Part shown: in pieces, positions 19,170 to 49,446 of the stretch
Position numbering within the stretch: the first letter of the stretch is position 1
Layout of the letters: every line of letters starts with the position of its first letter
DNA from: Orobanche coerulescens
Taxonomy: Eukaryota > Streptophyta > Magnoliopsida > Lamiales > Orobanchaceae
Direction of reading: 5' to 3'
Length of the DNA stretch: 64,000 nucleotides
Assembly: GCA_033398695.1 (NCBI GenBank)
Contig: CM065804.1
Location: forward strand, 38,765,501-38,829,500
Translations under genes and position numbers: made by a program
Notes under the pieces: model-generated
Seen by the model: the letters and a program-made list of their open reading frames with translations, nothing else
Databases searched by the model: none
Told to the model about the DNA's origin: nothing

Positions 19170-19182
19170 AATACCCCCAAAC
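19170..19182 (-). other. Polypurine tract of Athila-1
   Basis: The minus strand reads GTTTGGGGGTATT directly before the 3' LTR, the position where plus-strand DNA synthesis is primed. Confidence 0.8.
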
Positions 19183-21724: not shown

Positions 21725-21734
21725 GGCGAGTTTC

Positions 21735-22247
21735 CTGAAAAGATAAACACCGGAAATTACATAACCTATAAGGAAAACAACACCACTTTCGACTTAAGAT
21801 ACACGAAACATGAATATTGAGTTTTGCACCATCGTAAGAGGAAATTAAGGCTAAGCTTTCAAATTTAAACATGACGTAAGGGTTGGGGTACACTGTAATA
21901 CGATAAAATAATTCGTTGCATATAGTTTTAAAAACGTTTGGTTCAAAATTTTTCATTGACGCATTTCATCAAACACATAGCATGCATGGGTTTAAATGAA
22001 GAACAGAAATTATAATGGCTAAATCCAATCCCCAAAAATAACAACATAAATATATAGCCATGACAAACGACAAATAACATCAACAATTCATTCATAATCA
22101 ACAAATACCATCAATAATCAATCAATAATTTCATATCCCAACTCAACCTTGATAAAAAAAAACTAACAACATATTCATCATCGAATGAATAACAATACCT
22201 CAATTTTAAAATCATGTAGCAATTAGAATTAAGAGATTTAGAATTAC
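21735..22247 (-). other. Predicted leader intron of Athila-1 ORF3
   Basis: On the minus strand a donor CAAG/GTAAT starts at 22247 and an acceptor TTATCTTTTCAG ends at 21735, leaving GAAACTCGCC before the ATG. An alternative upstream donor CCAG/GTAAGT is at 22332. The stretch is AT-rich and lacks a frame, as expected for a plant intron. It is unproven without RNA. Confidence 0.5.
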
Positions 22248-22353
22248 CTTGCTTGGATTGAAGAATGCAAGAAGAAGAAGAAGTGACTAGGGTTCGGCCG
22301 AGCGCTGCGCGGAGAAAGGGAAGAAAACTTACCTGGTATGCCGGCCGATCGAT

Positions 22354-22590
22354 GTTATAAAGCAGGCCTGGGCTGTTCATCTTCGCAACAGGGGCCGCGG
22401 CACAGCTTAAGTGAGCCGCGGCCCAGAGTACATCCTGCCTGGGTGTGTTTGGGGCGATTGGCGTGCCGCGGCTCATCGTGTAAGTGTGTCGCGGCTCATT
22501 TTGCCCGTGCTGCGGCATAGGGTACAGGAAGTTTAGCCCCCTTTTTTCGACTTGTGTGTGCCGCGGCTCACTATCCTTGTGCCGCGGCTC
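22354..22590 (-). promoter_or_regulatory. Internal promoter-like region of Athila-1 ORF3
   Basis: CCGCGG-centred palindromes cluster at 22393-22590 (for example GGGCCGCGGC ... GCCGCGGCCC), like the array in the LTR U3. A TATA-like TTTATAAC (minus strand, 22354-22363) follows, then the leader with splice donors. The TATA match is better on the plus strand (TATAAAG), so direction is not settled by the box alone. Confidence 0.5.
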
Positions 22591-22801
22591 AGGGTTAAAT
22601 TTTCCCTTGGGGATATTCCTGCACAGAATTTTCAAAGGAAAACACCAAGAACGTGAGGGATAAGCATATCAAAGCAAAAATGACGAAAAATAAAGACTCT
22701 AAAATGCAAGAAAACACTGAAAAACAAAAATCTACAACTAAAACTTGGGTTGCCTCCCGAGAAGCACTAAGTTTATAGTCTTCAGCCGGACTTATTGAAA
22801 A

Positions 22802-25407
22802 TCAGTGTGCTCTTCGCAAACACCATTTGAACTCCGCCCCGTCCATCGAACCGTTAATATGTGTTTTAAATTTTTGGCCATTGGTCTTTAACAATTCGAT
22901 TTTCGGTTTGGACACACAATGTTCTTTGCGAAAAGATTTGAACAAAAACAACTTTCCGAAACACCCATATTGCACATGACTTGGTACCCGTTTCACTTCC
23001 GGCTTATTCTCCTTTTTCACGAACAAACTTATGACAGCATTAGAATTTTTCGTTGGTGGATGAACGGTTGATGAAGACGACATGTCCAAATGCCTAAGAT
23101 ATGCGACTCGCTCTTCATTTTTATTAGATATTGGAGCAGCTGAAACGGATTCTGAACACTTCGACCGATAATTCTCCCGGTGTGTGTCTTTCTCAAAGAT
23201 ATCAACTTGTGAACACTTCTCGACCTTGCTTGGACATGGGAGAGATCGAAACACTTTGAATGTGACTTGATCATATTCAACCCGAAGTATTAATTTACAC
23301 TCCTGAACATCAATAAGGGTCCTTCCGGTAGCTAAGAACGGTCTACCCAATATAATCGGAATCTCATGGTCTTCTTCCATATCAAGCACAATGAAATCAG
23401 CAGGGAAAATGAATTTATCTACCTTGAGTCCTTGACCAAGACATCTTCTATTACCCCTCTCGGGTATTTGATGGATCTATCGGCTAGTTGTAAAGAAACC
23501 GTAGTGGGTTTTGCTTCCCCAATTCCTAGTTTCTTGAAAATAGACAGAGGCATGGGATTAACGCTAGCGCCGAGATCACATAATGTTTTATCAAAAGACA
23601 AGTTCCAAATAGTGCACGGTATAGTGAAGCTTCCTGGATCCTTCAATTTAGGCGGGAGCTTTCTCCGCAAGATTGCGCTGCACTCTTCAGTCAGTGCTAC
23701 CGTTTCATATTCCTCGAGCTTCCTTTTCTTAGATAAGATTTCTTTCATGAACTTAACATAGCTCGGCATTTGTTCCAAGGCATCAACAAATAGAATGTTG
23801 ATGTGTAGTTTCTTGAAGACGTCGAGAAACTTGGAAAATTGTTTGTCCAATTTTTGCTTTTGCAATCGCTGCGGAAATGGTACGGGTGGCACATATGCTG
23901 TCGGATTATCTGGAAACAATTTTGAGGATCTAGAAATTTGTGATTCCTCGGTCGCCGAATTTTTCTTCTTCTCATCCTCACTTCTCTTTTTGTTCCTCTC
24001 GGTCTGGTCACACACTTCCTTCCCGCTTCTCAAACTAACGACATTAATACTCTCTCTGGGGTTCGTCTCAGTTGTGCTTGGCAAGGTACCCTCAGGGCGG
24101 GCTGTTAACACATTTGCTATTTGGCCCAATTGGACTTCAAAGTTGCAAATAGAGGCGGAATGGTTTTGTAAAGTTGCTTCCGTACGGGTCATGAGCTGAC
24201 TCGTATTTGCTGCTAATTTTGCCATTGCCTCCTCTAGAGAGATTTTTGGAGCGGGAGGAGGTTGCTGTTGGTGTTGAGAAAACTGAAGTTGGTTTGAGTT
24301 TTGTCCGTTCTTCCACGAAAAGTTGGGGTGATTTCGCCACCCCGGATTATATGTGTTGGAGTACGGATTGTTCTGCCGGTTCCCGTTCCCCACAAACTGA
24401 GCTTGTTCCATTGGAGGTTGCTCGAAAGGATTTCTGACTTGGCACTCCACGCTAGGATGAGATCCGTTGCACCAATTACATGATTCCGTGGTGACGGTGG
24501 TAGGAGCATGTGAAAAAGCTTGAAGTTGCTGAGTCAACGCTGCGACTTGTGCTGATAGTGTAGATATTAGATCATTATTGGAGATTTCCATTACTCGTTT
24601 CGGGATCACTCGTTCGGAAGGCCACTGATAAGCATTTGCAGCCATCGCCTCCAATAGAGAATGAGCTTCTGCCATCGTCTTTCCCATTAACGCTCCTCCA
24701 GCGGCTGCATCAACAAGAGTGCGTGTAGAATCACTCAATCCATTATAAAAGGTTTAAATTTGCAGCCAATCCGGTAGACCATGGTGTGGGCATCTCCTTA
24801 GCAAATCTTTGTATCGCTCCCAAGCTTCATGAAGCGACTCCATATCAAATTGCCCGAAGGTAGTTATCTCGTTCCTAAGTCTCGCTATCTTCGATGGTTG
24901 AAAGAACTTAGCCAGAAAGGCTTGCGCTAATTCCGCCCAAGTCGTGATAGAGCCCAGCGGTAAAGAATTCAACCAAAACTTGGCTTTGTCCCTTGAGAAA
25001 GGGAAAATCCGCAGACGAATAGCATCATCGGTAACACCATTATTCTTGAAGGTGTCACAAATCTCAAGAAATGAAGCGACGTGTGCGTTGGGATCATCGT
25101 TTGCCCGTCCACAAAATTAGCTTGCTTGCACCATCTGAATAATAGCTGGCTTAATCTCAAAGTTGTTCGCTTGGATGGTTGGATGCCGAATCCCCGAAAA
25201 GTTTGCATTGATTTGTGGCATTGTATAATCACGGAGTGCTAATGCCGGTTGAGCTTGCTGAATAGGGTTGTCTCCTCCGTAGTTTTCCGTGTTATCGGCC
25301 ATGGTGTCTTTTTCTGGTAGCTCGCGCTTTTCCTTCTTGTTTTTCCGAAGAGTGCGCTCGAGTTCAGTATCCAAAGGTAGTAGGCCTTCGTTACCGAATT
25401 TTCTCAT
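22802..25407 (-). pseudogene. Athila-1 Gag plus protease
   Basis: The segments run 25407-25117, 24972-24754, 24738-23419 and 23389-22802. Gag core motifs (TWAELAQAFLAKFF, FGQFDMESLHEAWERYK), a zinc knuckle CNWCNGSHPSVEC and the protease motif CDLGASVNPMP (the DLG variant usual in Athila) are visible. In-frame TAA codons near 25117 and 24752 and a frameshift near 23415 disable it. After the protease end (ILGRPFLATG region) no RT follows. The TTGGGTTGCCTCCC box at about 22745-22760 marks the post-pol region, as at about 35260-35273 in Athila-2. Confidence 0.9.
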
Positions 25408-25519
25408 GCACTAACCAGAAATTCCTGAAAGGAAAACAAATAAATAAAATTACACAAAAATAAAATAATGTTCAAATTAAGACTAGAAATACTGAAATCG
25501 ATATTAGTAAAATAAACGG

Positions 25520-25537
25520 TCCCTGGCAACGGCGCCA
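25520..25537 (-). other. Primer-binding site of Athila-1 (tRNA-Asp type)
   Basis: The minus strand reads TGGCGCCGTTGCCAGGG six bases inside the 5' LTR border. This is the Athila primer site complementary to tRNA-Asp, with one difference from the Athila-2 copy (CCAGGG for CCGGGG). Confidence 0.85.
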
Positions 25538-25543
25538 AAAACT

Positions 25544-26851
25544 TGTTGCGAAATTTGGTGAACGCAAGTGCACGTTATCGTAAACAAGTAATAAAGTTAT
25601 AAGTAAGATATCGTTCCCACGAGGACTGACTGACTAACTACCAATTTATGCGTATTCTAATTTTATTTGAACTATCGAAATTTTGATGCAAGTAATAATT
25701 AAAGAAAATTAATAGAAGAATAAACAGTAAAAACGATTGTTTGAAGAAAGAAAATCGAATAAGGAATTAATCTAGGAATGTGAATCTACCTCGGTTTATC
25801 CGAATTTACTCTTGATTATATGAATTTAATGATTTCCCAATTTATTGAAGGCGAAGGTTGCTAAAATACTCTACTGCCTCTCCCGAGGTCAATAGAATTT
25901 CCTAAGGCGAATAACACACTCTATTCCTAGGTGAATTAATTCGACAATAGGAAAAAAGCACGAAATCTTCAGAAAGGCCACGTAATTCCTATGAGTATAT
26001 TCCTATCTCACAAGATAAAACGGTTCTCACCAATTTTTCCTACCAACTCTCCTCTCCCGATTCGAGTTGCGTAATCAAAACAATTCAATTATAGGCCACA
26101 CAATTGAAAGCATTAAGAACAATTGGGAAAAACTCAATAAAAAAGGGAATTTATTGATAATGCAAAATCAAAAGTTAATTCATCAAAACCTCGGTTTCAT
26201 CAAAATCCTAGAATAGGGTTCTAGCCTCACATGCTAGAAAATAAAAATACACAAAGAATTAAAGAAAGCATAAAAATCAAACGCAGTCGAAGAACTTGGA
26301 TTCCTCCGTTCTTCTAGCTTCTGCTCTCTTGCTCCTTGGTGTTTTTCTCCTTCTCTTCTATTCCTCGATGATTCCATCCCCTCCTTCCAGACCTTAACTC
26401 CCTATTTATAACCATCAGTCGTCTCCAAAATGCGTCCGTGGATTAGGTCGAGAACAGGCTCCAAAAACGACCCAGAAATGCAGCAAATTCCTCAAAACCG
26501 CCCCATGGGCCACGGCTCAGTAAGTGTGTGCCGCGACCTATAACGCTCAGCGCCCTATGCCTAGGCGCAGTTTTTCTTCATGGGTTGCGGCTCAGCTTCA
26601 ACGTGCCGCGGCCCCCGGTACAGTGGGTTCGGGGCTTACTAGTCACCTTCGTGTGCCGCGGCTCAGCGTACGGGTGCCGCGGCTCGTGACCAAAAATCGT
26701 CGTTTTCGCCCGTTTTTCGTCGTTTAGGCTTCCGGACTTCAATTTCCTGCAAAACATATAAGAATAGTGCATTAAAAGCTCATTTATGCAGATTTAGACT
26801 TAAAATGGATATAAAAGGATGATAAATAAACGCATAAAAATACGCCTAACA
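25544..26851 (-). repeat. Athila-1 5' LTR
   Basis: Same 1308-bp length as the left LTR, running from TGTTGCGAA (25544) to CCTAACA (26851). The TATA box on the minus strand (GGTTATAAATAGGG, about 26402-26415) is intact. Several CCGCGG palindromes have changed here (for example CCGCGACC and GGTTGCGGC), each a C-to-T or G-to-A difference from the left LTR. Confidence 0.93.
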
Positions 26852-30892: not shown

Positions 30893-31343
30893 CTAGTTGA
30901 TGAGTCGATTCTTGATCGACTCATTCTGTTCTTTCTAGTCGTGTTTTTGTTTGCTTTTTAGTATTTTTGTTCTCTTTTATGCGTGGTATGTGTGTTTTTA
31001 ATTTATAGGTAGCCAAGCGAAGATTGTGGTGAAATATGCGCTTTCATAGCTAATATTGGAGTCTATGACGATCAAAAGCTAAAACGGGGCCTAAAACGAC
31101 GAAAGATTTAAGCAGTATCGGTCAAATCTCCTAAATCCCAGAATCTCCACTCCGAATCGAGATGTATTCTCCTTTGATATAAATTCCTCGAGAAATTAGC
31201 TTCGAAACGGTATATCATATGCTAAAATCCGAGGTGAATTGATACAAGAACGAATGATCTAGCCGAAGAAGACCAAAAACCGGACTTGGCTGCACCAGGC
31301 GACTCAACTAGGCTCCACCAGGCGACTCGAGCCACATCAGGTA

Positions 31344-31579
31344 ACTCGGCCGTGTCACAGGACACGGCCGGGTCTCATTCCAGCAAGAATCTTATTTTCC
31401 GGAAGGGAACGACTCGACCGTGCCTTTTGGGACACGACCGAGTCACTATCGGCCATTTACACTTCCTGGCGCAGCACAACACGGTCGTGTCATGGGACAC
31501 GGCCGAGTCTCAAGACAGTTACCTTTTTCGTTATTCAGCGTAGTGCGACACGGCCGTGTCCCAGGACACGGGCCGTGCC
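31344..31579 (+). repeat. Four GC-rich hairpins at about 68-bp pitch in Athila-2 U3
   Basis: Hairpins start at 31344, 31412, 31479 and 31548. Each has 12-13-bp arms of the type ACTCGGCCGTGTC/GACACGGCCGAGT and a 4-5-base loop. The right LTR has the same four at about 42366, 42296, 42231 and 42160. They lie about 70-300 bp upstream of the LTR TATA box. Confidence 0.9.
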
Positions 31580-31648
31580 ACTTTTTGGTTCATGTCACTT
31601 TCCTTGACATTTTTGCATACTTTTAAGCCTTTGTCTTGATTTTTTGGC

Positions 31649-31655
31649 TATAAAA
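31649..31655 (+). promoter_or_regulatory. TATA box of the inverted left LTR
   Basis: TATAAAA in GGCTATAAAACAAAG. Because this LTR is flipped, transcription from it would run rightward, antisense to the element's own genes. The partner box in the right LTR is at 42084-42090 on the minus strand. Confidence 0.7.
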
Positions 31656-32720
31656 CAAAGTGGAGTGACCCCTTGAGAGGTGTGCTTGTCTTGTGAAGAA
31701 GATATTTTGTGGAAAAACACAAGATTAGGGAGGAAAAACACCAAAAGAGTGGGAAAGAGAGAGATTTTCATCATCTTCCTTGTGTGTTCTTGGAGTGAGA
31801 AAAATACTTTTGTGAGATATAATAATTCCTTGTATAAATTTGTTGTGAGTTCTTGTAAGAAGATCATCAAACCTTCATCGGGAATTCAATTTCGGCATTT
31901 ACAAGGGAAGTTTTTACCATGTTTTGTTCTTCAATTTCCATTATTGTTGTTGAATTAATCATGTGTGGCTAAACACTTCATATGGGTTTTTAGATATATC
32001 CACACACATGTTTTTGATTGTTAGTTCCTTTTGATTTTCCGGATAAAAGTTTGGGATTGTTCCTCTTGTTCGTTCTTCGTTTAAGAACTTTTGAATTAGA
32101 TCATCAAACCTTTTTCATTGTTGTTATTATTATTCGAATCGAGGTTTTTATCGGTGTTCGCCATCAAAGCGACCGAAAAAGCGATTGTGAATGTTCTCGA
32201 GCTTTTTCGCGCGATCTTTTAACGATTTAGCTCATCAAAAGTAGTCGGTTAATTGATTGTTAGCTAGGGTTTCGTCCCCATCAAAAGAGTATCCCTTAAT
32301 TTTTGTTGAGAACAATCGTGATTTTTAGAATCTCCGCCATCAAACGGATTTCTTTTAATCGTGAGCAATCGATAATTCCTAACCTTATTTATTTGAGTAT
32401 CGGAACTAATAATTGATTACGTGTGTGTCGGTGACTCTAAATTCCCATATTAATCTCATTATTGTTATCTCTCATTTATCCGACTATCAAATTGGTGTTG
32501 TTATCACTTAGTTCAATTTAAATTTTGTGCATTAGTAATTGTAATCATAATCAACCAATGATGTATTTTAATTTAATTTACTTTTGTTCATTCGACTATT
32601 TGCCGAACATTATCGAATTTTAAACCGTTTCCAATTCCTCGAGAGATCGACCTCAGAGTTACTTGCCGCTTACTACAAGAGCGATTCGTACACTTGCGAT
32701 TATTTAATTTGAATCCATCA

Positions 32721-32733
32721 AGACCCCCCAAAC
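32721..32733 (-). other. Polypurine tract of Athila-2
   Basis: The minus strand reads GTTTGGGGGGTCT directly before the left LTR. The tract is in its normal place; only the LTR beyond it is flipped. Confidence 0.8.
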
Positions 32734-34298
32734 TTGAACTTTGATCGTCCCGAGCAAATCACTTTAAAATAACCATTCTGAAAAGGGGAACTCAACTGTT
32801 AAAATACCTCAAAGGATCTCTTCGAAAATTTCATCAATTCTCACAAGTAAAATGAGTCGAGTTTTACAAAGTTTTCAAACCTCCGGGGTGCTTCCTTAAA
32901 ATCATAGTCCATACTTGGCAATATAAACCTCACTGGTCAAGTGTATTCGCTCACTCTCAAAGTGATATGGATAAGTATACGCTCGGAACTTATTCAATGA
33001 AATAAGGAACCTCATAGGCTTGCCAATCGTCTTAATCTCTACCACTGTTTTGTGTATGCAAAAAATTTTGTGAATCAAAATGGGCATTACTCGGCTTGAA
33101 ATGTAGGCTTTGGTCCGGCCGGGATATATATGGCTAAAGTAACTTGACTCGAGCAATTTTTAGAATTTAAATCACCATAGTCGCTTTAGAAGCTCAAGCT
33201 TTGAGATTTGCTTCTTTCATCCCCTTAATTATGAACCACTTGTAACAAGCACTATCGGAAGTGAAAAATGCAGCGTCATACCCTCCTTATTGCTCCGATT
33301 TTTTTTTTTTTTTTTTGGCTTGGGTTGTTTTAGGATCCGTTTTACGCGAATGTAAACGATGGGTCACATGAATACACCCGGTTACTAGGATCAAAATATA
33401 CGCAACTACTTCCAAGCATACTCATATCTAAGGGATCCGTTTTACGCGAATGTAAACGATGGGTCACATGAATACACCCGGTTACTAGGTTCCCAAAAAT
33501 AGCGGAGTAATTATTTTCACCAATTCAACACTCCCGACAATATATATGGCACCCAATGTCACCACAATCTTTGCATCCTCGTCAAAAATATTTCTAATTG
33601 TTCAAGTAGGGATCAAAGGATTATAGTAAATGAAAGCTCGATATGTGGTTTAACAATGAAATAGACAATGACCTCAATTGGGTTTATTTAAGAAATGATC
33701 AAATGTCGGGTTGGCCAAAATCGAAGGGTAAAGATCAAAGGCGCCAAAAATCATTTTCACTTAATTTGCACACACACACCAGTGGTTTTAAACAAGATAC
33801 CAAGGCAAGTTCTAGAGTTTTAAATCAAGAATGAAACACTCGACAATGAAACTTGCATTTAAGAAAATGCACGAAGGCTCAATAGCTCACAAGTAGGTTT
33901 GCTCATACTTCCAAGATATTAAAACCACTTATTCAATTTCACACCCGTTTCGATTATCAACAATTTTTTTCCTCAACAAATTATTCTCGATTTGTATATC
34001 AGAACAACGAAATAAATCCCGAGGCATTCCAAAAAAATACACACTTCAAAGTTTTCTTCAAGTTTGCGAAATAAACACACCAAGTAAAAACACACCAAGT
34101 AAAAACACACCACAAATAAGTGCAAAATGTTCAAAACACACGAAAAATAATCAAACAAGCAAAATAAAAAAAAAAATCGAGAGTAATGAAGTATTTCTTG
34201 ACCGACCCCCCCAAACTTGAATTAAAGAATATACGAACGAAGGGGGTATAGTATTTAAAGAAAAGAATTTCATTGGTCAAGAAATACTTACGACCGGT
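32734..34298 (-). other. Athila-2 3' non-coding region
   Basis: Long non-coding DNA after ORF3. It holds the duplicated conserved box, a T run at about 33300-33316, a short AAACACACCAAGTA tandem repeat (about 34074-34112), and a second C6 run (34206-34211) that reads as a polypurine tract on the minus strand. No coding frame is convincing. Confidence 0.6.
33339..33489 (-). repeat. Duplicated conserved box of Athila-2
   Basis: Two near-identical copies at 33339-33389 and 33439-33489 (period 100). The plus strand reads GTTTTACGCGAATGTAAAC, then GGGTCACATGAATACA, then CCGGTTACTAGG. They match the duplicated box of Athila-1 at 19760-19916 at most positions. Confidence 0.88.
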
Positions 34299-34618
34299 TT
34301 ACTGCTCGGGCGGAGGGAAGTGGCCTTGCTGGACATGCCAATCGACCATTCGTCTCACAAGAGACAATATCTGGCGTCGCTCCTCTCTAGACTCCTCTCG
34401 GTCCCGTCTAGCCTCCTCTCGGTAGGCTTCGAATTCCTCCCTCAATGATGGGCGCGATGGGGCACGTCCAATTTCGGCCCGCCTTGACGTCTCGGGCCAA
34501 TCTCTCGTGATTTCTTCCTCTTCTTCTTCACTCTCTTCTTCTTCCTCGTCATCCGGGCCTCTTTCATAAGCCTCCTCCTCCTCCATCCTCTCGGCACTAT
34601 CCTCATCATCCGTAATGC
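34299..34618 (-). pseudogene. Athila-2 ORF3 remnant (acidic, coiled-coil C-terminus)
   Basis: The open frame is very rich in Glu/Asp (DDEEEEESEEEEEE), followed by an Arg/Glu-rich helix (YREEARRDREESREERRQ). The helix resembles the C-terminal coiled coil of Athila-1 ORF3. The N-terminal domain seen in Athila-1 is missing, so this is probably an internal deletion. The internal TATA-like site lies about 250 bases upstream. Confidence 0.55.
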
Positions 34619-34856
34619 GCCTAGGTCAAACGTTTCAAATTAAACCCTGGTCCAAATTCGTCCGAGTTGCTCCTTAGATGAGTGAAATTGGTTGAAAGAT
34701 GATGATTATATAGTTGATTCTTGTATCTCTTCTTGATTTTGCATAAAATTTCTTTAAAAACGAAGAGAAAAATCGATACTGCAACAGCTAGTGTTCGCAG
34801 GTTTCGCAGGGAGGAAGAAAGATAAAAGTTGGAGAAGATAAAATTGGGGAAACGGC

Positions 34857-35110
34857 CGTGTTTCCGTTTTATACTGACCGACTGACACGACCGTGTTGAA
34901 TATGACACGGTCGTGTCGTGCTGTGCAGAATAACTCAAAACCTTCTGTCGGCCGACTCGGCCGTGTCCTACGACACGGTCGTGTCGTACTATCGCGGAAA
35001 TCCAACTCTTGCTGTATTGAGGCCCGACCGTGTCGTCCTGTTCGAAATAATCAAATTCTCACTGTTTTGAGGCCCGGCCGTGTCCTGTGGCAACTCGGCC
35101 GTGTCCTTCC
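34857..35110 (-). promoter_or_regulatory. Internal promoter-like region of Athila-2
   Basis: The LTR-type GGCCGTGTC/GACACGG motif recurs here at least eight times, with two full hairpins (about 34893-34919 and 34967-34995). A TATA-like GTATAAAAC on the minus strand (34866-34874) lies at the downstream edge, ahead of the ORF3 remnant. The layout matches the LTR: palindromes first, then TATA. Confidence 0.55.
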
Positions 35111-35316
35111 TCTCCAGATTATTAGTTTCTGAAAACGTACTGGTTTCCTGCAATTTTAATACCCACAGTTGAACCGGTCAGTTTTGAATCGAATAAAAAC
35201 AAACAAGGAAAATAAATGCGAAAAACAAAAGACAAAAAAAAAAATCTAACTAAAACGTTGGGTTGCCTCCCAAGTAGCGCTTTTTTATAGTCATTAGCTC
35301 GACTTCTTCCCACTGC

Positions 35317-36650
35317 TCAAGCTTCAACGTCGTGCACCTCTATGCACTCGAACGCATTGATTTCTTCGGTTCGTCCGAAATACGGCTTCACTCTATGCCC
35401 ATTTACTTTAAAATGCTCGTTCTTCCGAGGATCAAGAAGTTCAACCGCTCCGTGCGGCCATACTTTAACGACTTTGAACGGTCCGCCCCATCGCGATACC
35501 AATTTTCCGGGCATAAGTTTGAGACGGGAGTTATGTAGCAAAACATCCATACCGGGTTCGAGAGATTTACGAACGATACGCTTATCATGATACCGTTTCG
35601 TCCGTTCTTTGTAGAGTTTAGCGTTTTCGTACGCCTCATATCGCATCTCATCAAGCTCGTTTAAATGCAAAAGTCGTTCCTCGCCCGCCTTTTCTTGATC
35701 TAAATTGAGCGCTTTGATTGCCCAATACGCCTTGTGTTCTAGCTCAACGGGTAGATGACATGCTTTCCCAAATACTAGGCGATACGGACTCATTCCGATT
35801 GGAGTTTTGTAGGCCATGCGGTATGCCCATAAAGCGTCATTCAACTTTAATGCCCAGTCTTTTCTTGTTGGTTTCACCGTCTTTTCGAGCACTGCCTTTA
35901 TTTGTCGATTGCTTACTTCTACTTGCCCGGAAGTTTGTGGATGATACTGTTGCGACCTTATGCATCACATTGTACTTCTTAAGCAAGCCTGCAAGTTGTT
36001 TATTGCAAAAATGCGTGCCTCTGTCGTGATTACGGCCCTAGGCGTCCCGAACCTGCAAAAATCACATCCCTAAAAAATTGCAAACCACGTTAGCATCGTT
36101 AGTTCGGGTTGGAATTGCTTCCACCCATTTAGAGACGTAGTCTCTGAACTAGAATATACTCAAAACCATGGGAAATTGGAAAAGGACCCATAAAATCCAC
36201 TCCCAAACATCGAAAAGTTCCACAACGAGGTTGTTTGTCAACGGCATCTCATTCCTTTTGCTTATATTCCCGTTCGTTGACAACGATCGCAACTCTTGCA
36301 ATGGAAATAGGCATCCTTAAACAATGTTGGCGGTAGAATCCCGATTGAAGGACCTTGTGAGCCGTTTTCTTTACGCTAAAATGTCCCCCACGGTGCAACT
36401 CATGGCAAAATAACAATATGCTCGTGCTCTTCCTCCGGACACAACGTCGGAATATCTAATCGGGCCCACTGAATAAATAGGGCTCGTCCCAAAAGTAATG
36501 CTGCACATGGAAGCGAACCTCTTCTTCCCTTGATAGGTTAAGTCGGGCCGCAAAACACCACTAACAATGTAATTGACAATATCGGCATACCAAGGTGTCC
36601 TTGTTACATCGAATAATTGCTCATCGGGAAAGTTTCAACAATTGGCAAAT
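35317..36650 (-). pseudogene. Athila-2 integrase
   Basis: The C-terminal half is open (35892-35317): [41 protein letters not shown] and the [18 protein letters not shown] region typical of Athila integrases. Upstream the core and zinc-binding parts (about 35900-36650) are split by shifts; catalytic motifs are only partly readable. No chromodomain follows. 36651-36870 is degraded sequence linking to RNase H. Confidence 0.85.
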
Positions 36651-36870
36651 GATTATCAAGCTTAAAATTATCACCCTCGGTTAGCCTAGATAGATGGTCA
36701 CCACTACGTTTTCCGACCCCTTTTTATCTTTGAATTCCAAATCAAATTCTTGCGAAAAGAACCCACCGAATCAATCTTGGTTTTGCATCGGATTTTTAGT
36801 AAATATTTCAATGCGGCGTGATCCGTATGCACAATCACCTTTGAGCCAACCAAGTAGGATCGAAATTTGT

Positions 36871-38130
36871 CTAAAGAAAATACAACGGATAAAAATTCTT
36901 TTCGGTGGTGGTGTAATTGCTTTGAGCTTCATCGAGCGTTTTACTCGCATAGTAAATCACGTGGAAGAATTTATTCACTCTTTGCCCCAAAACGGCACCT
37001 ATAGCAAAGTCGGATGCATCACACATAATTTCAAAAGGAGAGACCAATCGGGAGCGACAACAATCGGTGTTGAAGTTAACTTTTCTTTCAAAGCGTTGAA
37101 ACCGACTAAACATTCCTCGGTAAAATCAAATTTAGCATCTTTGCACAAAGGTTACTCAAAGGGCGGGCAATTTTCGAAAAATCTTTAATAAAACGCCTAT
37201 AAAACCCGGCATGCCCTAAAAGCTTGAACCTCTTTGACACAAGAAGGTGGAGGTAATTTAACAATCAAATCGACTTTAGCCTTATCAACCTCCATTCCTT
37301 TATTGGAAACCATATGACCTAGAACAAGACCTTGTTTTACCATAAAATGACTCTTTTCCCAACTAAGTGTAAGATTACACTCAATACATCGTTCTAGCAC
37401 AATAGTCAAATTATTTAAACAATCATCGAAAGTGGTTCCAAATACGGAGAAGTCGTCCATGAATACCTCGATGGATCTTTCTAACAAGTCGGAGAATATA
37501 GATAGCATGCACCTTTGAAAAGTAGCGGGGCATTGCAAAGACCAAACGGCATCCTCCTAAAGGCAAAAGTGCCAAAAGGGCAAGTGAAAGTGGTCTTCTC
37601 TTGATCTTCCGAGCAATAGGAATTTGATAGAAACACGAAAGACCATCTAGAAAAGCATTAATAATCATGCCCATAAACGTTCCAACATTTGATCAATGAA
37701 AGGTAGAGGAAAATGATCCTTTTTTGTTACGGCATTTAATTTCCGGTAATCAATGCACATCCTCCAACCGGTTACCGTTCTAGTGGGCACCAATTCATTT
37801 TTATCGTTACGAACCACCGTTATTCTAGATTTCTTAGGCACTACATGCACAGGACTCACCCACTTCGTCTGATATCGGGTAGATGACTCCGACATCTAGC
37901 AATTTTAAAACTTCCTTTTTCACAACTTCCTGCATGTTCGGATTCAAACGCCTTTGAGGTTGCCTAACCGGTTTAACATTTTCCTCAAGAATTATTTTAT
38001 GCATGCACCTAACCGGACTTATTCCCTTGATATCGGAAATACTCCACCCAATCGCTTCTTTTAACTTAGTTAGAACTTCTACTAATTTGTTTTCTTGCAA
38101 AGGAGTTAATTCGGAAGAGACAATTACTGG
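36871..38130 (-). pseudogene. Athila-2 reverse transcriptase and RNase H
   Basis: Segments read on the minus strand: the IGWSISDIKGISP lead-in and RRLNPNMQEVVKKEV (38100-37834), [12 protein letters not shown] and [13 protein letters not shown] (37895-37665), the catalytic FMDDFSVFG (a YVDD variant used by Athila) within 37538-37197, then RNase H CDASDFAIGAVLGQR (37113-36871). Shifts near 37850, 37670, 37550, 37200 and others break it. Confidence 0.9.
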
Positions 38131-38148
38131 GTATGTGTCACTTTTGCC

Positions 38149-40590
38149 TCAGAAAACATATTTAAGATGTGTCGGAAGTTCTTTCAATTCGAGTTGGGGT
38201 GGGGTGATTTCAACGGGCTCCTCAAATTTTAATTCCAACGGTATCTTAAAACCGTCAACTTCATCAATTATTTCGGAATTATCTAATAACGCAACATATC
38301 TTTCAATTTCTAGATTATTAAGCCCCATATCATGCTCAACGGTTAGAGCATCATGCAACGTGTCACCTACATCATCATGAAAATATATATCATCAACCAA
38401 AGAATCAATGCAATCAACAAAATTCACATCATGGGAAGCATAAATATGAGAAGGGATAGGAGATGAACCGAACACGTTGATTTCCACGGTTTCGCCCAAG
38501 ACGGTCATGGTGACCTTTCCTTCATAAACATCGACGATTGTTTTTGTTGTACGCATGAACGGCCGTCCTAGAAGTATTGTCCCTTCATTTTCGCTTGTCC
38601 CGAAATCGCTCATCTCCAAGATAACAAAATCGGCCGGAATCACCAACTTGTCCACTTGCACTAATAGGTCTTCAATGACTCCTTTGGGGTATTTCACTGA
38701 CCTATCCGCCATTTGAAGAGTCATTCTTGTTGGTTTGATTCCCCCGAGTCCAAGCCTCAAATAGGTCGAGTATGGCATGAGATTCACACTTGCCCCCAAA
38801 TCTAGCATCCCACGAGCAACTCTCTTGTCTCCCATAGTAATGTCGATCATAAAACTTCCGGGATCACCTTTCTTTTGACCCCTTGCCTCTACCTCGTAGA
38901 ACACCACTTTCTCGTTCCCATTGTATCTTCTTTTGTTGGAGGTCAACTCTTTGAAAAATTTTGTATAAGCGGGAATGTTCTTCACAACATCCAAAAGAGG
39001 TAAGTTGACATGAACCTTCGAAAGCATGTCGTAGATTTTGGAAAATTGCTCATCTTGCTTTGCTTTTCTCAGACGGCTCGGGAAAGGAATTGGTGGCTTA
39101 TATGGTTGAGCGGATTTGTGAAGCTTGGAAGTTGAAGTTGCTTCGTCTATTTTCTCTTCTTGATTTCCCAACTCGTCTTCTTTGTCATCGCCTCTTTCTT
39201 TTACTTCGGAATTAACTTCTTTATTAATCACTTTACCACTTCGGAGAGTGGTAATGGCTTGAGCTTGCTCGGGTTGACTCGGTAGTTTACCCCTTTCTTG
39301 TCTATGTGCCTCGGTAGCAAGTTGCCCAATTTGGACCTCCATTTTCTTCATCGAAGCTTCTAAAGATTCGAACCTTTTATTGTTCTCCTCTCGGTTTTCC
39401 TTGCTCTCCTTAATGAATGCCGCTATACTCTCCTCGAGAGAGTTCCTTTGTTGTGGAGGTGGTTCACTTCGCGTTGGTTGTTGGGCTCGGTTTCCTCCGT
39501 TGTATTGAGCTTGGGCGTTTGTGTCATATGGAACCGGGTTGTTGTTTCTCCATGAGAAATTCGGATGGTTTCTTAGCCCAGGATGATAAGTATTTGGGAG
39601 AGGTACATTTCTTGCGTTTCCGCCATAATTATTTCTCCTCTCTTCCCATTCGGGCCTTCCCGTGCTTTGCCCCATAGCCCAATTAACTTGTTCGGTTTGT
39701 TCTCCCGGAAAAGTATGAGGGCATGCATTGGCATCATGTCCGGGTGCTCCGCAAATCTCGCAAATTCGTGAGCTAGAAGGTTTATTTTTAGTCTTGAGTT
39801 GTCTTATTTCATTTGTCAATTCATCGATTTTAGATTGCATCTCGTCCTTCTCGCTCACTTGGTGCACGGCTCCCCTACGAACACGTACACTTTTTTGTTG
39901 AGAATTTGCTCCCAATGTTTCATACACGTCATATGCTTGTCTCTCCGTCAAACCCCAAAACGAACCACCGGCTGCATTATCTACCGCTCCTTGGCAATAT
40001 TGAGTCAATCCGTCATAGAAGAATTGATTGAGTAGCTGAAGCGGATAGTGATGGTGTGGGCATTGAATGAGTAGCATTTTGAATCGGTCCCATGCTTCGT
40101 GAAATGCCTCTCCGTCTTGTTGTCCGAAAGTTGAGATTTGAGTTCTCAATTGCGTCTTCTTTGAATGGGAGAAGTACTTGGTAATGAATTTATCGTAAAC
40201 TTCATCCCATGTTCTTAGCGATCCGGGCGCCAAAGTCATCAACCATTGTTTCGCCCCGTCCTTGAGTGTATAAGGGAAACACTTCATTCGTAGTTGATCC
40301 TCGCTCAACCCATTCAATGGGAAGTTGTCAATCGCCACATAGAAATCTCGGATGAATGATAACGGATCCTCTCGTGCTAATCCGTGAAATGAGGGCAATT
40401 GCTCGATGTGAAATCCGCTTATGTGGTAGTTCCTTGCGGCTGGTGCTAATCGGATGCATGAAATGGCGGTGTTCACTACGGGCTTTGCATAGTCCCTCAT
40501 AAGATGTTCGACCGGAGGTTGTTGCGGCATGTTATAGTTCGCCTCCATCCCATATTGAGGTCCGGGATAATAATTCGCTCCATATTGCAT
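38149..40590 (-). CDS. Athila-2 Gag-protease (long open frame)
   Basis: An 813-residue open frame, the best preserved in the window. The Gag core includes CFPYTLKDGAKQWL and FHEAWDRFKMLL. A zinc knuckle CEICGAPGHDANAC follows near residues 275-288, then a Glu/Lys-rich linker and the protease with MLDLGASVNLMPYS (DLG for the usual DSG/DTG, normal in Athila) and GTILLGRPFMRT. The true Gag start is probably the frame at 40903-40706, separated by a stop/shift. The frame ends just before RT, and the junction is damaged near 38140. Confidence 0.85.
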   Translation of the reverse strand: MQYGANYYPGPQYGMEANYNMPQQPPVEHLMRDYAKPVVNTAISCIRLAPAARNYHISGFHIEQLPSFHGLAREDPLSFIRDFYVAIDNFPLNGLSEDQLRMKCFPYTLKDGAKQWLMTLAPGSLRTWDEVYDKFITKYFSHSKKTQLRTQISTFGQQDGEAFHEAWDRFKMLLIQCPHHHYPLQLLNQFFYDGLTQYCQGAVDNAAGGSFWGLTERQAYDVYETLGANSQQKSVRVRRGAVHQVSEKDEMQSKIDELTNEIRQLKTKNKPSSSRICEICGAPGHDANACPHTFPGEQTEQVNWAMGQSTGRPEWEERRNNYGGNARNVPLPNTYHPGLRNHPNFSWRNNNPVPYDTNAQAQYNGGNRAQQPTRSEPPPQQRNSLEESIAAFIKESKENREENNKRFESLEASMKKMEVQIGQLATEAHRQERGKLPSQPEQAQAITTLRSGKVINKEVNSEVKERGDDKEDELGNQEEKIDEATSTSKLHKSAQPYKPPIPFPSRLRKAKQDEQFSKIYDMLSKVHVNLPLLDVVKNIPAYTKFFKELTSNKRRYNGNEKVVFYEVEARGQKKGDPGSFMIDITMGDKRVARGMLDLGASVNLMPYSTYLRLGLGGIKPTRMTLQMADRSVKYPKGVIEDLLVQVDKLVIPADFVILEMSDFGTSENEGTILLGRPFMRTTKTIVDVYEGKVTMTVLGETVEINVFGSSPIPSHIYASHDVNFVDCIDSLVDDIYFHDDVGDTLHDALTVEHDMGLNNLEIERYVALLDNSEIIDEVDGFKIPLELKFEEPVEITPPQLELKELPTHLKYVF

Positions 40591-40705
40591 TCCGACGGGT
40601 GGTTGTCTCGGATAAAAGTACCTCCCTTGTTGAGCTTCCGGTATCCCTTGATTGCGCCCAACATTATCATATCTCGGAAACCTTGGTTGTGAATTTCTTC
40701 CTCAT

Positions 40706-40903
40706 CTATATTTTGTGCAACATTCTCAACCCTTGGTTGTGAGTGTTTTCTTCTTGGATCAAAAGTCGCTCTTCAAGGTCCGGATTCACCTCATCGTTTG
40801 CCATTGATGTTGTGGCCATTATTTTTGGTGCTCTAATTCTTTGAACTTCGTCTATCGGTGGAAGAATCGGGTTACCCAACGATCTCCTACCAAGCATAAA
40901 CAA
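40706..40903 (-). pseudogene. Athila-2 Gag N-terminus
   Basis: A 65-codon frame beginning MFMLGRRSLGNP, upstream of and in a different frame from the main Gag-protease ORF. Athila Gags commonly start with a similar short region. A frameshift or stop between 40590 and 40706 separates them. The leader from here to 41017 contains the primer-binding site. Confidence 0.6.
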
Positions 40904-40993
40904 AGGAAGTAAGAGCGAATTTTATCGAAATAGTATTGATCAAGAATAGCAATTCAACTATCATTAAAACAAGATTAAAAATTAAACGCCAAT

Positions 40994-41011
40994 TCCCCGG
41001 CAACGGCGCCA
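40994..41011 (-). other. Primer-binding site of Athila-2 (tRNA-Asp type)
   Basis: The minus strand reads TGGCGCCGTTGCCGGGGA six bases inside the right LTR. This exact Athila primer site shows that the right LTR is a normally oriented 5' LTR. Confidence 0.88.
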
Positions 41012-41017
41012 AAAACT

Positions 41018-42841
41018 TGATGGATTCAAATTAAATACTCGCAAGTGTACAAATCGCTCTTGTAGTAAGCGGCAAGTAACTCAGAGTCGATCTCTCGAGG
41101 AATTGGAAACGGTTTAAAATTCGATAATGTTCGGCAAATAGTCGAATGAACAAAAGTAAATTAAATTAAAATACATCATTGGTTGATTATGATTACAATT
41201 ACTAATGCACAAAATTTAAATTGAACTAAGTGATAACAACACCAATTTGATAGTCGGATAAATGAGAGATAACAATAATGAGATTAATATGGGAATTTAG
41301 AGTCACCGACACACACGTAATCAATTATTAGTTCCGATACTCAAATAAATAAGGTTAGGAATTATCGATTGCTCACGATTAAAAGAAATCCGTTTGATGG
41401 CGGAGATTCTAAAAATCACGATTGTTCTCAACGAAAATTAAGGGATACTCTTTTGATGGGGACGAAACCCTAGCTAACAATCAATTAACCGACTACTTTT
41501 GATGAGGTAAATCGTTAAAAGATCGCGCGAAAAATCTCGAGAACATTCACAATCGTTTCTTTCGGGTCGTTTGATGGCGAACACCGATAAAAACCCTCGA
41601 TTCGAATAATAATAACAACAATGAAAAAGGTTTGATGATCTAATTCAAAAGTTCTTAAACGAAGAACGAACAAGAGGAACAATCCCAAACTTTTATCCGG
41701 AAAATCAAAAGGAACTAACAATAAAAAACATGTGTGTGGATATATCTAAAAACCCATATGAAGTGTTTAGCCACACATGATTAATTCAACAACAATAATG
41801 GAAATTAAAGAACAAAACATGGTAAAAACTTCCCTTGTAAATGCCGAAATCGAATTCCCGATGAAGGTTTGATGATCTTCTTACAAGAACTCACAACAAA
41901 TTTATACAAGGAATTATTATATCTCACAAAAGTATTTTTCTCACTCCAAGAACACACAAGGAAGATGATGAAAATCTCTCTCTTTCCCACTCTTTTGGTG
42001 TTTTTCCTCCCTAATCTTGTGTTTTTCCACAAAATATCTTCTTCACAAGACAAGCACACCTCTCAAGGGGTCACTCCACTTTGTTTTATAGCCAAAAAAT
42101 CAAGACAAAGGCTTAAAAGTATGCAAAAATGTCAAGGAAAGTGACATGAACCAAAAAGTGGCACGGCCCGTGTCCTGGGACACGGCCGTGTCGCACTACG
42201 CTGAATAACGAAAAAGGTAACTGTCTTGAGACTCAGCCGTGTCCCATGACACGTCCGTGTTGTGCTGCACCAGGAAGTGTAAATGGCCGATAGTGACTCG
42301 GCCGTGTCCCAAAAGGCACGGTCGAGTCGTTCCCTTTCGGAAAATAAGATTCTTGCTGGAATGAGACCCGGTCGTGTCCTGTGACACGGCTGAGTTACCT
42401 GATGTGGCTCGAGTCGCCTGGTGGAGCCTAGTTGAGTCGCCTGGTGCAGCCAAGTCCGGTTTTTGGTCTTCTTCAGCTAGATCCTTCGTTCTTGTATCAA
42501 TTCACCTCGGATTTTAGCATATGATATACCGTTTCGAAGCTAATTTCACGAGGAATTTATATCAAAGGAGGATACATCTCGATTCGGAGTGGAGATTCTG
42601 GGATTTAGGAGATTTGACCGATACTACTTAAATCTTTCGTCGTTTTAGGCCCCGTTTTAGCTTTTGATCGTCATAGACTCCAATATTAGCTATGAAAGCG
42701 CATATTTCACCACAATCTTCGCTTGGCTACCTATAAATTAAAAACACACATACCACGCATAAAAGAGAACAAAAATACTAAAAAGCAAACAAAAACACGA
42801 CTAGAAAGAACAGAATGAGTCGATCAAGAATCGACTCATCA
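41018..42841 (-). repeat. Athila-2 right (5') LTR, normal orientation
   Basis: 1824 bp, plus strand TGATGGATTC to CGACTCATCA. On the minus strand it carries the four U3 hairpins, then the TATA box (42084-42090), then R/U5 to the primer-binding site. Translated comparison with the left copy shows very few differences, so the insertion is comparatively young. Confidence 0.93.
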
Positions 42842-43125
42842 CTAGTTGATTACTCAACTAAGTCCTCAGGGGAAGAGAGATTCCAACAGCTGAGATACCT
42901 GTTGTGATCTCCAACCCAGCTGAAACTCCCACTAACGAACCAGCAGCTTAGTCTACCAAGTTGGCCTTGGTAGAAGAATAGGAAGAAGACAATCTCATCC
43001 CTGCAACACCACTCCTTGAGCTCCCCAGCATTCCTGAGGAAGTTAATGTTGCAGAAGAACAAGTCATTGAGGAAGCTGACATACATTACAGATTCAATCT
43101 CAAGGACAAGAACCTAAAGGAAATA
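42842..43125 (+). pseudogene. SIRE-like extra ORF, continuation
   Basis: After the CTAGT duplication the reading frame left at 30892 resumes without a stop for a short way, then continues as acidic, Pro/Glu-rich coding-like sequence (EEDNLIPATPLLELPS) to the Tork insertion at 43126. Scattered stops are present. Confidence 0.55.
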
Positions 43126-44058
43126 TGCTCCAATATGTTGATTTAGCTCGTATTTTGTTCGTATTCGTGGTATAAAAAGAAATGCATAAGACTCCCTTTT
43201 ATAGGGTCTAAAAGCACTCCATCTAGTGGGGAGTTAATGCAGATTAAAGTGTCAATAATTCTCCTTAACTCTTCAGCTGAAAGGTTACCTCCATAAATAG
43301 TCTTCTCTAATTCGCACGTCACACTATGGAGTGTGAAGAGTCACATTGAAGCTGGTATAGACCATGTTAGATCAGCTCAGTATCTCAGGCAGCTAGGTCA
43401 AATCACAGCTTAGTATTCAGCCAGCTGGGTTAGTCAGCGCAATACAACTAGTTGGGTAAGTCAACTCGGAGCTCAACTTAGTAGGTGAGGCAGCTGGGTT
43501 CTCAGACCTGGCCAATTTCGTTGGACTTGGCTGCAAAAATTAATATAGTCACAACCCAAGCTCCTAAGGTCCAAGTAACACAAGTCCAGCCCAAAACCCA
43601 ATTGTCAAGAACCAAGAACCAAGATTCAAGGTCCAAGACCCAAAGTCACGCCAATGCCTGTGCCCATGTCCGAGACCGAGCGGAGCCAAGCCGGCCTGTT
43701 GGTGAGCGACGGCGGCGCGCGTGCATGTGTGGGCTTCACAGCACTGGCCCACTAGTGTATACTACTAGCTTGTTGAACTACCCATACACCTTCGTACTAA
43801 TAAGCTAGTCAGGAAAGCTTTAAGTTTCCAATGTGGGATGACCCTTCATATCCCACTTTAACTCTTGTCCATTTTAACTAAATGGCCAACTTTGATCATT
43901 TACTCATCAAAAATTGGTTTTGACAAAAATAAAATCTTACATTTACCTCGAAATGTAGATTCACAATTTATTGTTTAATTTTCAAGAATTTAATATTTAT
44001 TATCATTAAATGGATCAAATTGAGTCAAAAATCATTTTCCTTAAACCAATTTCTATTA
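43126..44058 (-). repeat. Tork 3' LTR
   Basis: 933 bp. On the minus strand it should begin TGTTGGAAATTGG; this copy reads TAATAGAAATTGG. A tract CTCATGTGGGGGAT (44059-44072, minus strand) directly precedes it, as a polypurine tract should. U3 is rich in CAGCTG and AGCTGGGTT motifs (about 43330-43510). 44073-44510 is degraded pol end and 3' flank. Confidence 0.85.
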
Positions 44059-45129: not shown

Positions 45130-46184
45130 CAATCCCATGATCTTTACTCGGATTACTCGTGAACCTATTCAACCTGTTCCCACAAATGCCAAATATGGCC
45201 TTGTACAAGTCGTAATCTACATTAGGCTTCTGATTACTCTTAAATATTCGACTTGAGCCATTGGATCACTTATATTCTTACTCACGTGCACACTGGTATC
45301 AACGAGTGTTTTTACAGGTGGGCTGTTAAAAGCGTTGAACTTCTTGAGCACTTTCTCAATAAAATGAGATTGTAAAAAGAAGATACCTTCTGATGTTCTG
45401 CTAATTACAATTCCAAGAATTAAATCAGCTAAACCCAAATCCTTCATATCAAAGTTTCGACTCAATATCCTTTTTTTATTCTCAATTATTTCATTGCTAC
45501 TTTCCATGATCAACATATCGTCTACATATAGAAAGACTATGAAAAATGATTCAGGTGCGCCTTTAATATATATATACAGTTATCACATTCGTTAATTTTG
45601 AATCCATTTGCCAACATAGTTGTGTCAAACTTCACATGCCATTGTTGAGGAGCTTGTTTTAGTCCATACAATAACTTCAAAGGTCTACAGACTTTCTTTT
45701 CCTGACTAGGTGCAATGAAACCTGCAGGGTGTTCCATATAAATTTCTTCTTCTAATTCACCATTCAAGAACACAGTTCTCACATCCATTTGATGAATCTC
45801 GAGGTTGTGCCTTGCATCCATAACAATAAGCATTCAAACGAAAGTTATTCTGGTTACTGGTGAATATGTATTGAAGAAATCATATCCTTCTTTCTGTTTA
45901 AACCCTTTGGAAACAAGTCGGGCCTTAAACTTTTCTATTGACCCATCATCTCTATATTTCCTCTTTAGGATCCATTTACATCCTAAAGACTTGCATCCTG
46001 ATAGGAGATCAACCAGTTTCCAAGTATAACTTGACATATAAATCGCTTCTTTCCAAAAAAGAGCGTCAAGACTAGCATTAGCTTCCTGTATAATCTTTGG
46101 ATCATCATCAATTGCATAAGTCACAAAATCAAGACCAAGTGACTTAGCTATTTGAGCTATCATAATCTTGTCTTGGCTCTTCAT
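45130..46184 (-). pseudogene. Tork reverse transcriptase
   Basis: Frames 46184-45834, 45833-45537 and 45516-45217 follow in order: WKLVDL and [56 protein letters not shown], and the region after the catalytic motif (DLGLADLILGIVI). The YVDD box near 45517-45530 reads YVDDM-like on the minus strand. One or two shifts separate the frames. Confidence 0.88.
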
Positions 46185-47986: not shown

Positions 47987-49446
47987 CACTACTACAAAAA
48001 AGACATTCAACATCGCTCGTTTAACATCGGTTTTGTAAAAACCGATGTTAAAACAGACGTGGTGGCATAATTGAAAATTTTAAAACAAATTAACATCGGT
48101 TCTTCTAAAAACCGATGTTAAATTAATCCATTTCACATCGGTTTAGAAAAACCGATGTTAATTTTTAATTCAACATCGGTTTTTAGAAAAACCGATGTTA
48201 ATTTTTAAATAAAGTTTCCATTTTTTTAAAAAAAGTTTCAGATTTTTTAAAAAATTTAACATCGGTTATACTAAAACCGATGTTAAATTACAAATTAACA
48301 TCGGTTTTTAAAAAAACCGATGTTAAACAATGTTAATTTTTAATTTAACATCTGTTTTTAGAAAAATCGATGTTAATTTGTAATTTAACATCGGTTTTAG
48401 TATAACCGATGTTAAATTTTTTAAAAAATCTGGAACTTTTTTTAAAAAAATCGAAACTTTATTTTTTTTAAAAAATCCGGAATATTAATATTAAAAATTC
48501 GTTGTTTATATTTATTGTTCAAAAATAAAAGGTAAAAATTAGAAGTTTTTATTTAAATTTCGAAAATAAAAAATAAACATTAGTTCGAGAATAAAAAATA
48601 AAAATCGGATGTTTTTATTTAAAGTTCGAAAATAGAAAATAAAAATCAGATGTTTTTATTTAAAGTTTTGAAAAAAAAAGTGGAATATTATTTTTTTATA
48701 AATAAATAAAAATTGAATTATTATATATATTTTTAAAAACCTGCTAGTTTTTGTTTTTGTAATTTTTTACTCTTCATAAAAAACTATTTTATATTATTAC
48801 AAAAAATCTAAAAATAAAAAAAAACAGATTAAATATTAATTATAAATCAGATCCATATTTTTTAATTTTTTATTTTTTATTTTCGATCTTTAAATAAAAA
48901 CATCCGACTTTTAATGTTAATATTCTAGATTTTTTAAAAAAAATAAATTTTCGATTTGTTAATATATATATATATTTATATTAAATTATCTATATTTATA
49001 TAAATTTATAAATATATATAGTATATAAATATATCACATAGCAAAAAATATACAAGAAGTTCATCTGGCGGAGTGGTAATATCACACTTCCACAAGCAAG
49101 AGGTGGTGAGTTCGAAACCCAGCAACAACGAAATTTAATGGTATTTGTTGTAGGTGGGGAAGGGGGTCAAAAGTGCGGGTGGTTGGGGAGAGTGTCTGGG
49201 TTAGGGTTGGGTTGGGCTATTTGGGTTAGCCATGATCCGATAAAATTTTAAAATCGCGAAATTTAACATCGGTTGTCCCAGAACCGATGTTAAATATCGC
49301 GATATTAAAATTAACATCGGTTTTTATAACAACCGATGTTAAAATCGAAGTTTAACATCGGTTATTAGAAACCGATGTTAATTTTAACATCGCGACATTT
49401 AACATCGGTTCCAAAACCGATGTTAAATGTCTGTTTTGTAGTAGTG
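47987..49446 (+). mobile_element. Small non-autonomous CACTA element
   Basis: Ends CACTACTACAAAA and TTTTGTAGTAGTG are perfect inverted repeats. A 3-bp duplication AAA flanks both sides, and the empty site exists in the right LTR near 53216. Twelve palindromic units of ACATCGGTT...AACCGATGT line the ends: eight at about 48020-48420 and four at 49262-49426. The middle is AT-rich with no transposase frame, plus a tRNA-like stretch and a G-rich stretch (about 49155-49230). Confidence 0.93.
49060..49130 (+). ncRNA. tRNA-like / SINE-like segment inside the CACTA derivative
   Basis: An A-box-like TGGCGGAGTGG (49066-49076) and a B box GAGTTCGAAACCC (49108-49120) are spaced as in a tRNA gene, with AAGCAAGAGG before the B box. 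This resembles the tRNA-derived head of plant SINEs. A complete cloverleaf and anticodon were not confirmed, so it is probably a tRNA pseudogene or SINE remnant. Confidence 0.45.

Follow-up and report, generated by a model that had tools for sequence, protein, structure and literature searches.

Full-length inverted LTRs in an Athila-like retrotransposon of Orobanche coerulescens, a probable error at the cDNA stage

Introduction

Normal reverse transcription gives long terminal repeats (LTRs) in direct orientation. In this work, we describe an Athila-like element of Orobanche coerulescens in which the two full-length LTRs are reverse complements of each other inside a single CTAGT duplication. 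The element occupies positions 30898-42841 (minus strand) of a 64,000-nucleotide stretch of contig CM065804.1 (GenBank assembly GCA_033398695.1, positions 38,765,501 to 38,829,500 of the forward strand), hereafter called the window, to which all coordinates refer unless a genome position is given.

The Athila, Calypso and Diaspora elements (Ty3/gypsy) resemble the Orobanche element in their gag-protease frame, a tRNA-Asp-type primer binding site (PBS), a polypurine tract (PPT) against the LTR and a 5-bp target site duplication (TSD); the difference from the clade is the inverted 3' LTR of the Orobanche copy. According to the available text of PMC1142308, the PBS of Diaspora lies 5 bp beyond the LTR, compared with six bases here, and the PBS type is also like that of Calypso.

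Retrotransposons of the DIRS type are not known to leave a TSD, whereas an exact CTAGT duplication is present around the Orobanche element. In DIRS-1, the two LTRs are inverted by design, an internal complementary region and a tyrosine recombinase are present, and the replication cycle is thought to go through circles, as summarized in the accessible part of PMC5633606. The Orobanche element is unlike DIRS-1 in its PBS, PPT and TSD and in belonging to a family with direct LTRs. No Pfam match to a tyrosine recombinase was found in the four frames scanned, and the listing of inverted repeats covered those of at least 60 nt, so that a short complementary region could escape it.

The nearest precedent for an altered LTR orientation is HERV-K124, for which an LTR inversion in the integrated element is described and called rare in the available portion of PMC3625200; for the mechanism, the same text cites Hughes and Coffin 2002 (Genomics 80:453). 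As far as that text describes it, HERV-K124 has truncated inverted LTRs in a three-LTR locus, while both LTRs of the Orobanche element are full length and enclosed by an exact TSD. In our searches of open-licence papers, we found no plant case of a full-length inverted LTR pair, and a word search of PMC3228705 gave no mention of inversion. LTR inversion thus has a precedent in a human endogenous retrovirus family, and the Orobanche copy is a rare old mistake and no new kind of element.

Structure of the inverted-LTR element

The left LTR (30898-32720, plus strand, 1823 bp), which is the 3' LTR of the element, has its U3 end outward and its U5 end against the PPT. The right LTR (41018-42841, minus strand, 1824 bp) is the 5' LTR in normal position, with U3 outward and U5 against the PBS. 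Both carry TGATGAG..CCATCA ends, and the inverted arms cover the whole LTRs in three collinear pairs of 1252, 476 and 71 nt. In a blastn comparison the identity was 98.5% over 1826 columns. Full-length reverse-complement LTRs of 1823 and 1824 bp had been reported by an earlier reading of the window made from its letters (the sequence-only reading), and this is confirmed. The 8297-bp internal region (32721-41017, minus strand) lies between them, and the window contains no N.

The junction sequences agree with the same reading on how the internal region is placed. On the minus strand, the PBS (TGGCGCCGTTGCCGGGGA, 40994-41011) lies six bases from the right LTR in the normal arrangement, CATCA/AGTTTTTGGCGCCGTTGCCGGGGA (slashes mark LTR borders here and below). 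At the other end, the PPT region (AAGTTTGGGGGG, 32724-32735, minus strand, with its G run at 32729-32724) carries the tract AAGTTTGGGGGGTCT, which adjoins the left LTR at the U5 end of that LTR. Three bases at 32721-32723 (minus strand) form the anomalous joint, GGGGGG-T-CT/TGATGG.

Both host junctions are U3 ends, and CTAGT is found on both outer sides of the LTRs (30893-30897 and 42842-42846, no strand assigned); the chance of such a 5-base match is about 0.0011 at the local base composition. Part of the palindrome ACTAGT could also be taken for an inverted flank, but an exact fit to both LTR ends is obtained only when the duplication is read as direct. The inner 5-mers, AGACC after the left LTR and AAACT, match neither one another nor CTAGT. 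We considered whether the left LTR is a separately inserted solo LTR and rejected this, because the inner 5-mers give no second TSD: the left LTR has CTAGT before it and AGACC after it, with no duplication of its own.

Several repeated motifs were also noted in and around these borders. As single-stranded DNA, the start of U3 (30900-30924, with its mirror site in the right LTR) can form a 10-bp hairpin (z-score -4.6; 1 of 200 shuffles as good). The heptamer CAAGTTT occurs in the same orientation at both ends of the internal region, at 32730-32736 before the PPT G run and at 41013-41019 across the U5 end just before the PBS (minus strand). Near the PPT end, two identical 57-bp repeats are located at 33333-33389 and 33433-33489.

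Common origin and age of the two LTRs

The LTR pair of the window groups as sisters in a tree of 38 family LTRs (bootstrap 99, SH-aLRT 94), with branches of 0.0075 and 0.0077. Three bases are shared by both window LTRs and by none of the 36 others, and two more occur only in the window pair and an element on C14. Of the 29 difference columns, 15 reflect changes of the right LTR and 13 changes of the left, where several belong to one complex block; one column is unclear. Outside the complex block, 11 of 13 transitions lie in CG or CHG context, as expected from the decay of methylated DNA.

The Kimura two-parameter distance of the window pair is 0.0144, and nine direct pairs of the family range from 0.0050 to 0.0200. 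At an assumed rate of 1.3e-8 per site per year, this distance corresponds to about 0.55 million years. Since the window LTRs are sisters and their divergence falls within the range of the direct pairs, this is one old insertion whose inverted LTRs behave like an ordinary pair born together. The single insertion put forward by the sequence-only reading therefore holds, given one CTAGT duplication, sister LTRs and no inner TSD.

Between LTR positions 1272 and 1284, the differences lie unusually close together (a density reached in 1 of 20000 random placements). This was considered as a sign of a foreign template or of two parents and then dropped. The AAAGCGACCG form also occurs in the LTRs L026 and L040, and the window pair stays together in the tree, so we do not count the cluster as evidence for two parents.

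Orientation of LTR pairs across the family

The 3.65-Gb genome was searched with the left LTR, yielding 42 matches, two of which are the window's own LTRs; 40 of 3239 candidates were scored, and the family looks large. We analysed 36 stretches with LTRs, leaving out a partial match at C9:107.9 Mb. The pair survey concerns traced pairs only and is no census, most of the family being unscored.

Half of these LTRs (18 of 36) form nine same-orientation pairs, eight of them with identical 5-base flanks. Among the remaining 18, 13 have a partner in direct orientation, some of these partners being truncated or broken; by eye, 10 of the 13 pairs share a 5-base flank, L038/L061 only when a changed U5 end is allowed and L035/L060 within a TA repeat. 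For L014, L018, L029, L040 and L042, no partner LTR was found within the stretches where one was expected. Direct orientation was therefore observed in 22 of 22 other traced pairs, and the window pair is the sole inverted one traced. The inverted copy is accordingly an aberrant member of a family with a normal layout, and the sequence-only reading's suggestion of looking for relatives with inverted LTRs brought none to light among these pairs.

Two arrangements outside the window were recorded along the way. The LTR L029 (G000:C13:37714412-37716232) is immediately preceded by a PPT and immediately followed by a PBS, an arrangement like that of two tandem bodies with a common LTR, and no outer LTR was present in the two stretches read around it. 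L030 and L031 (G000:C3:163589297 and 163660864) lie 71.6 kb apart with a common flank ATCCC and appear as 5' and 3' LTR by their neighbours; they may belong to a single element that was later split by insertions totalling about 60 kb.

The abnormal joint between PPT and U5

The normal junction of the family is uniform, with PPT and U3 meeting as TT/TGATGAG in 23 of 23 copies. The base before this TT is G or A in 22 of them and T in one (L046, GGGGGGTTT/TGATGAG). At the opposite end of the body, the spacer between U5 and PBS is usually AGTTTTTGGCGCC; it begins with AG in 25 of 26 copies and with AA in L039. The inverted copy reads GGGGGGT-CT/TGATGG on the minus strand, that is, the PPT followed by T, CT and the reversed U5.

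Read against these family junctions, the CT (32722-32721) fits the reverse complement of the spacer AG, and the T (32723) fits the first T of the normal TT. The joint would then fall a single base after the PPT on one side and two bases after U5 on the other, without microhomology. The sequence-only reading had described a flip precisely from TG to CA; an inversion at the LTR borders stands, and the inverted piece seems to extend two bases (AG) beyond CA, so that the exact limits may not. Once an element is integrated, the 5' LTR is the only one with AG next to its U5, while under the known scheme of reverse transcription a linear complementary DNA (cDNA) can also carry AG after the 3' LTR. 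Because AG beside the 3' LTR is possible in cDNA and not once the element is integrated, the inverted LTR most likely dates from the cDNA stage.

A further comparison of the PPT-side 1500 nt of the body showed that matches to other copies stop at 1495-1498 in 10 of 10 cases that reach this end. Since a local alignment ends at the first mismatch, this is the same three joint bases again and not separate evidence. A previous version of the joint, in which the normal junction was taken as GGGGGGTCT/TGATGAG with a 7-base microhomology CTTGATG, was withdrawn, as the family copies read TT/TGATGAG. The window contains this 7-mer 21 times, compared with an expectation of 11.2.

Origin of the inverted LTR

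Our preferred interpretation is a single old insertion of the Athila clade, with a 3' LTR that was probably inverted in the DNA copy before integration, in line with the aberrant cDNA intermediate that headed the causes listed by the sequence-only reading. While reverse transcription was under way or immediately afterwards, an LTR would have been joined by its U5 end, which still carried the first two spacer bases AG, to the internal region at a point one base beyond the PPT. This attachment point would be at or next to the start of plus-strand synthesis, where the plus strand is nicked. The reverse transcriptase may have jumped at the nick between PPT and U3, continued from the 3' end of the plus-strand strong-stop DNA and copied this strand to its end; alternatively, a released double-stranded 3' LTR may have been ligated back the wrong way round. 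By either route, the new outer end would be the natural U3 end of the cDNA, giving a linear molecule with U3 ends on both sides and requiring no second coincidence. The integrase would then join the two U3 ends to a staggered cut with the usual 5-bp duplication, so that, with the integrase acting as usual, the TSD and the two U3 host junctions need no further events. Both break points would thereby lie at or beside natural ends of reverse transcription, namely the plus-strand start at the PPT and the U5 end of either the plus-strand strong-stop DNA or the cDNA; in the cDNA case, the U5 break point would fall four bases short of the end defined by the tRNA. Template switching by reverse transcriptase during DNA-dependent synthesis is documented for retroviruses in the available text of PMC3187697.

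Several observations weigh against an inversion in the cDNA. The AG argument is carried by three bases only, and a GGGGGGTTT parent (the L046 form, one of 23 copies) followed by one transition would yield GGGGGGTCT. Such a parent would also allow a precise flip from TG to CA, or a simple switch at the microhomology TTGATG, and a microhomology of six bases would exist at the joint only with this parent. The bootstrap of the tree is not settled, and by raw score the left LTR is closer to the C14 LTR (3169 bits) than to its own partner (3154), a ranking with which the tree and the shared bases disagree. Among the 22 other traced pairs there is no further inverted copy, and the jump and the re-ligation are indistinguishable here.

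The nearest rival is the integration of two cDNAs of the same parent, joined to the target together by their U3 ends, one per target strand, with their far ends trimmed and joined by host repair. Only the LTR with AG would remain of one cDNA, and the second would keep its whole length as far as the PPT and the T that follows it. This accounts for the TSD, the two U3 host junctions and a blunt joint without any inverted cDNA, and the sister LTRs fit if one parent gave both molecules; it also asks that both repair break points fall by chance within three bases of the borders between LTR and body, and we consider it unlikely.

Somewhat less likely again is a flip of the 3' LTR in place after integration, with breaks at both LTR ends through integrase-like cutting, as the sequence-only reading had proposed, or through repair at the 5-base TGATG/CATCA inverted ends. 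The LTR ends are indeed short inverted repeats, the outer border CTAGT/TGATGAG is clean, and the GGGGGGTTT variant exists in one of 23 copies, from which a single transition gives the observed joint. Against this, two exact breaks are required, and the joint has CT where a flipped integrated 3' LTR should leave TT, the AG-like bases belonging to the side between U5 and PBS. With U3 ends at both host junctions and AG spacer bases on the inverted LTR, cutting after insertion is less well supported, and no such flip was seen in any of the 22 other traced pairs.

An assembly error, by which an LTR-sized piece was placed the wrong way round, had also been listed by the sequence-only reading, and assembly graphs do tend to break at repeat ends, which here are the LTR ends. 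We judge it improbable, since each LTR carries private mutations, the window lacks N, the abnormal joint is absent from the 23 PPT junctions of other copies, and direct pairs were assembled normally in the same window and across the genome. Ectopic homologous recombination or gene conversion between family members in opposite orientation is hardly credible even in a family this large (3239 candidates, 40 scored), as an exchange inside LTRs keeps the U3/PPT and U5/PBS junctions and cannot make a U5/PPT one, and the nearest tree relative of the left LTR is its own partner.

Classification and coding content

The frame at 38149-40590 (minus strand, read from 40590 to 38149; 813 residues) encodes Retrotrans_gag and aspartyl protease domains (PF03732, E 2.2e-16; PF13650). 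A protein search with this gag frame returned 228 proteins at E <= 0.001, with a top match of 53% identity; among the best 120 of the 228, Ipomoea and Cuscuta proteins reach 46%, and the named relatives are of plant origin (Ipomoea, Cuscuta and Prunus, for example), apart from one that bears the label Pseudomonas. Relatives of this kind would fit a eudicot genome. The viral and prokaryote collections yielded no relative. In the inverted-LTR copy, pol is in pieces, one of which is a reverse transcriptase segment (PF00078) at 37197-37538 (minus strand) in an interrupted region.

The element combines a plant Ty3/gypsy-like Retrotrans_gag, a tRNA-Asp-type PBS shortly after the 5' LTR, TG..CA ends and a 5-bp TSD, all typical of the Athila clade; the direct LTR orientation of that clade is missing in the inverted copy. 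The probable placement in the clade draws on gag, the type and spacing of the PBS, the PPT against the LTR and the 5-bp TSD. We take the PBS to match tRNA-Asp, and the assignment otherwise follows by analogy with Diaspora. At clade level, the Athila identity given by the sequence-only reading is thus retained.

The window also contains an Athila-type element of another family (17862-26851, minus strand), which served as a control. Its direct LTRs measure 1.3 kb and its internal region about 6.4 kb; the TSD is ACAAA, the PPT stands against U3 and the PBS against U5. CAAGTTT is present at both ends of its internal region as well, and units similar to the 57-bp repeats lie at 19747-19928.

Flanking DNA

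When the flanks are joined as the presumed empty site, one of three frames stays open for 19 codons past the join, which is weak evidence, and a protein search with this frame gave seven candidates, none at E <= 10. The right flank at 43117-43438 has 83% identity to a second place in the window (55222-55546). Because of this resemblance, we place the insertion in or beside an older repeat, perhaps Copia-like (an RVT_2 piece is found at 45834-46184). Short palindromic and inverted repeats cluster outside the element, at 48078-48464 and 49258-49431.

Implications for the element and its family

Reverse transcription of this element is not expected to restore normal LTRs, and the copy would represent a dead end. 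The inverted LTR carries a TATA-like box at 31649-31654 (plus strand; LTR position 752), chosen by context from three TATA[A/T]A matches there. With this box mirrored in the right LTR, two predicted LTR promoters would face each other, and the two ends of the predicted sense transcript would be reverse complements of each other. A transcript from the right LTR would begin with R-U5 and finish with the reverse complement of R-U5, about 1.04 kb by a TATA-based estimate.

A broader idea, which we advance as a long shot, is that Athila-type reverse transcription regularly makes cDNAs with a 3' LTR joined in reverse at the plus-strand start site and that the integrase accepts their two U3 ends, forming a class of insertions overlooked because LTR finders look for direct repeats; the right-LTR transcript, with R-U5 and its reverse complement, could then silence the family as a hairpin. 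The accessible part of PMC6317226 describes a survey of plant LTR elements with LTR-FINDER, in which prediction starts from the normal element structure. Tools of this kind would probably miss an inverted pair. A simple census becomes possible by counting junctions between PPT and reversed U5 in plant genomes, where the reversed-U5 sequence expected after the PPT is TGATGGATTC.

If the broader idea is true, this natural, long hairpin RNA might trigger silencing throughout the family. The full-length inverted pair within an exact TSD is a fossil of a failed step, and it suggests that the integrase can insert a molecule with two U3 ends.

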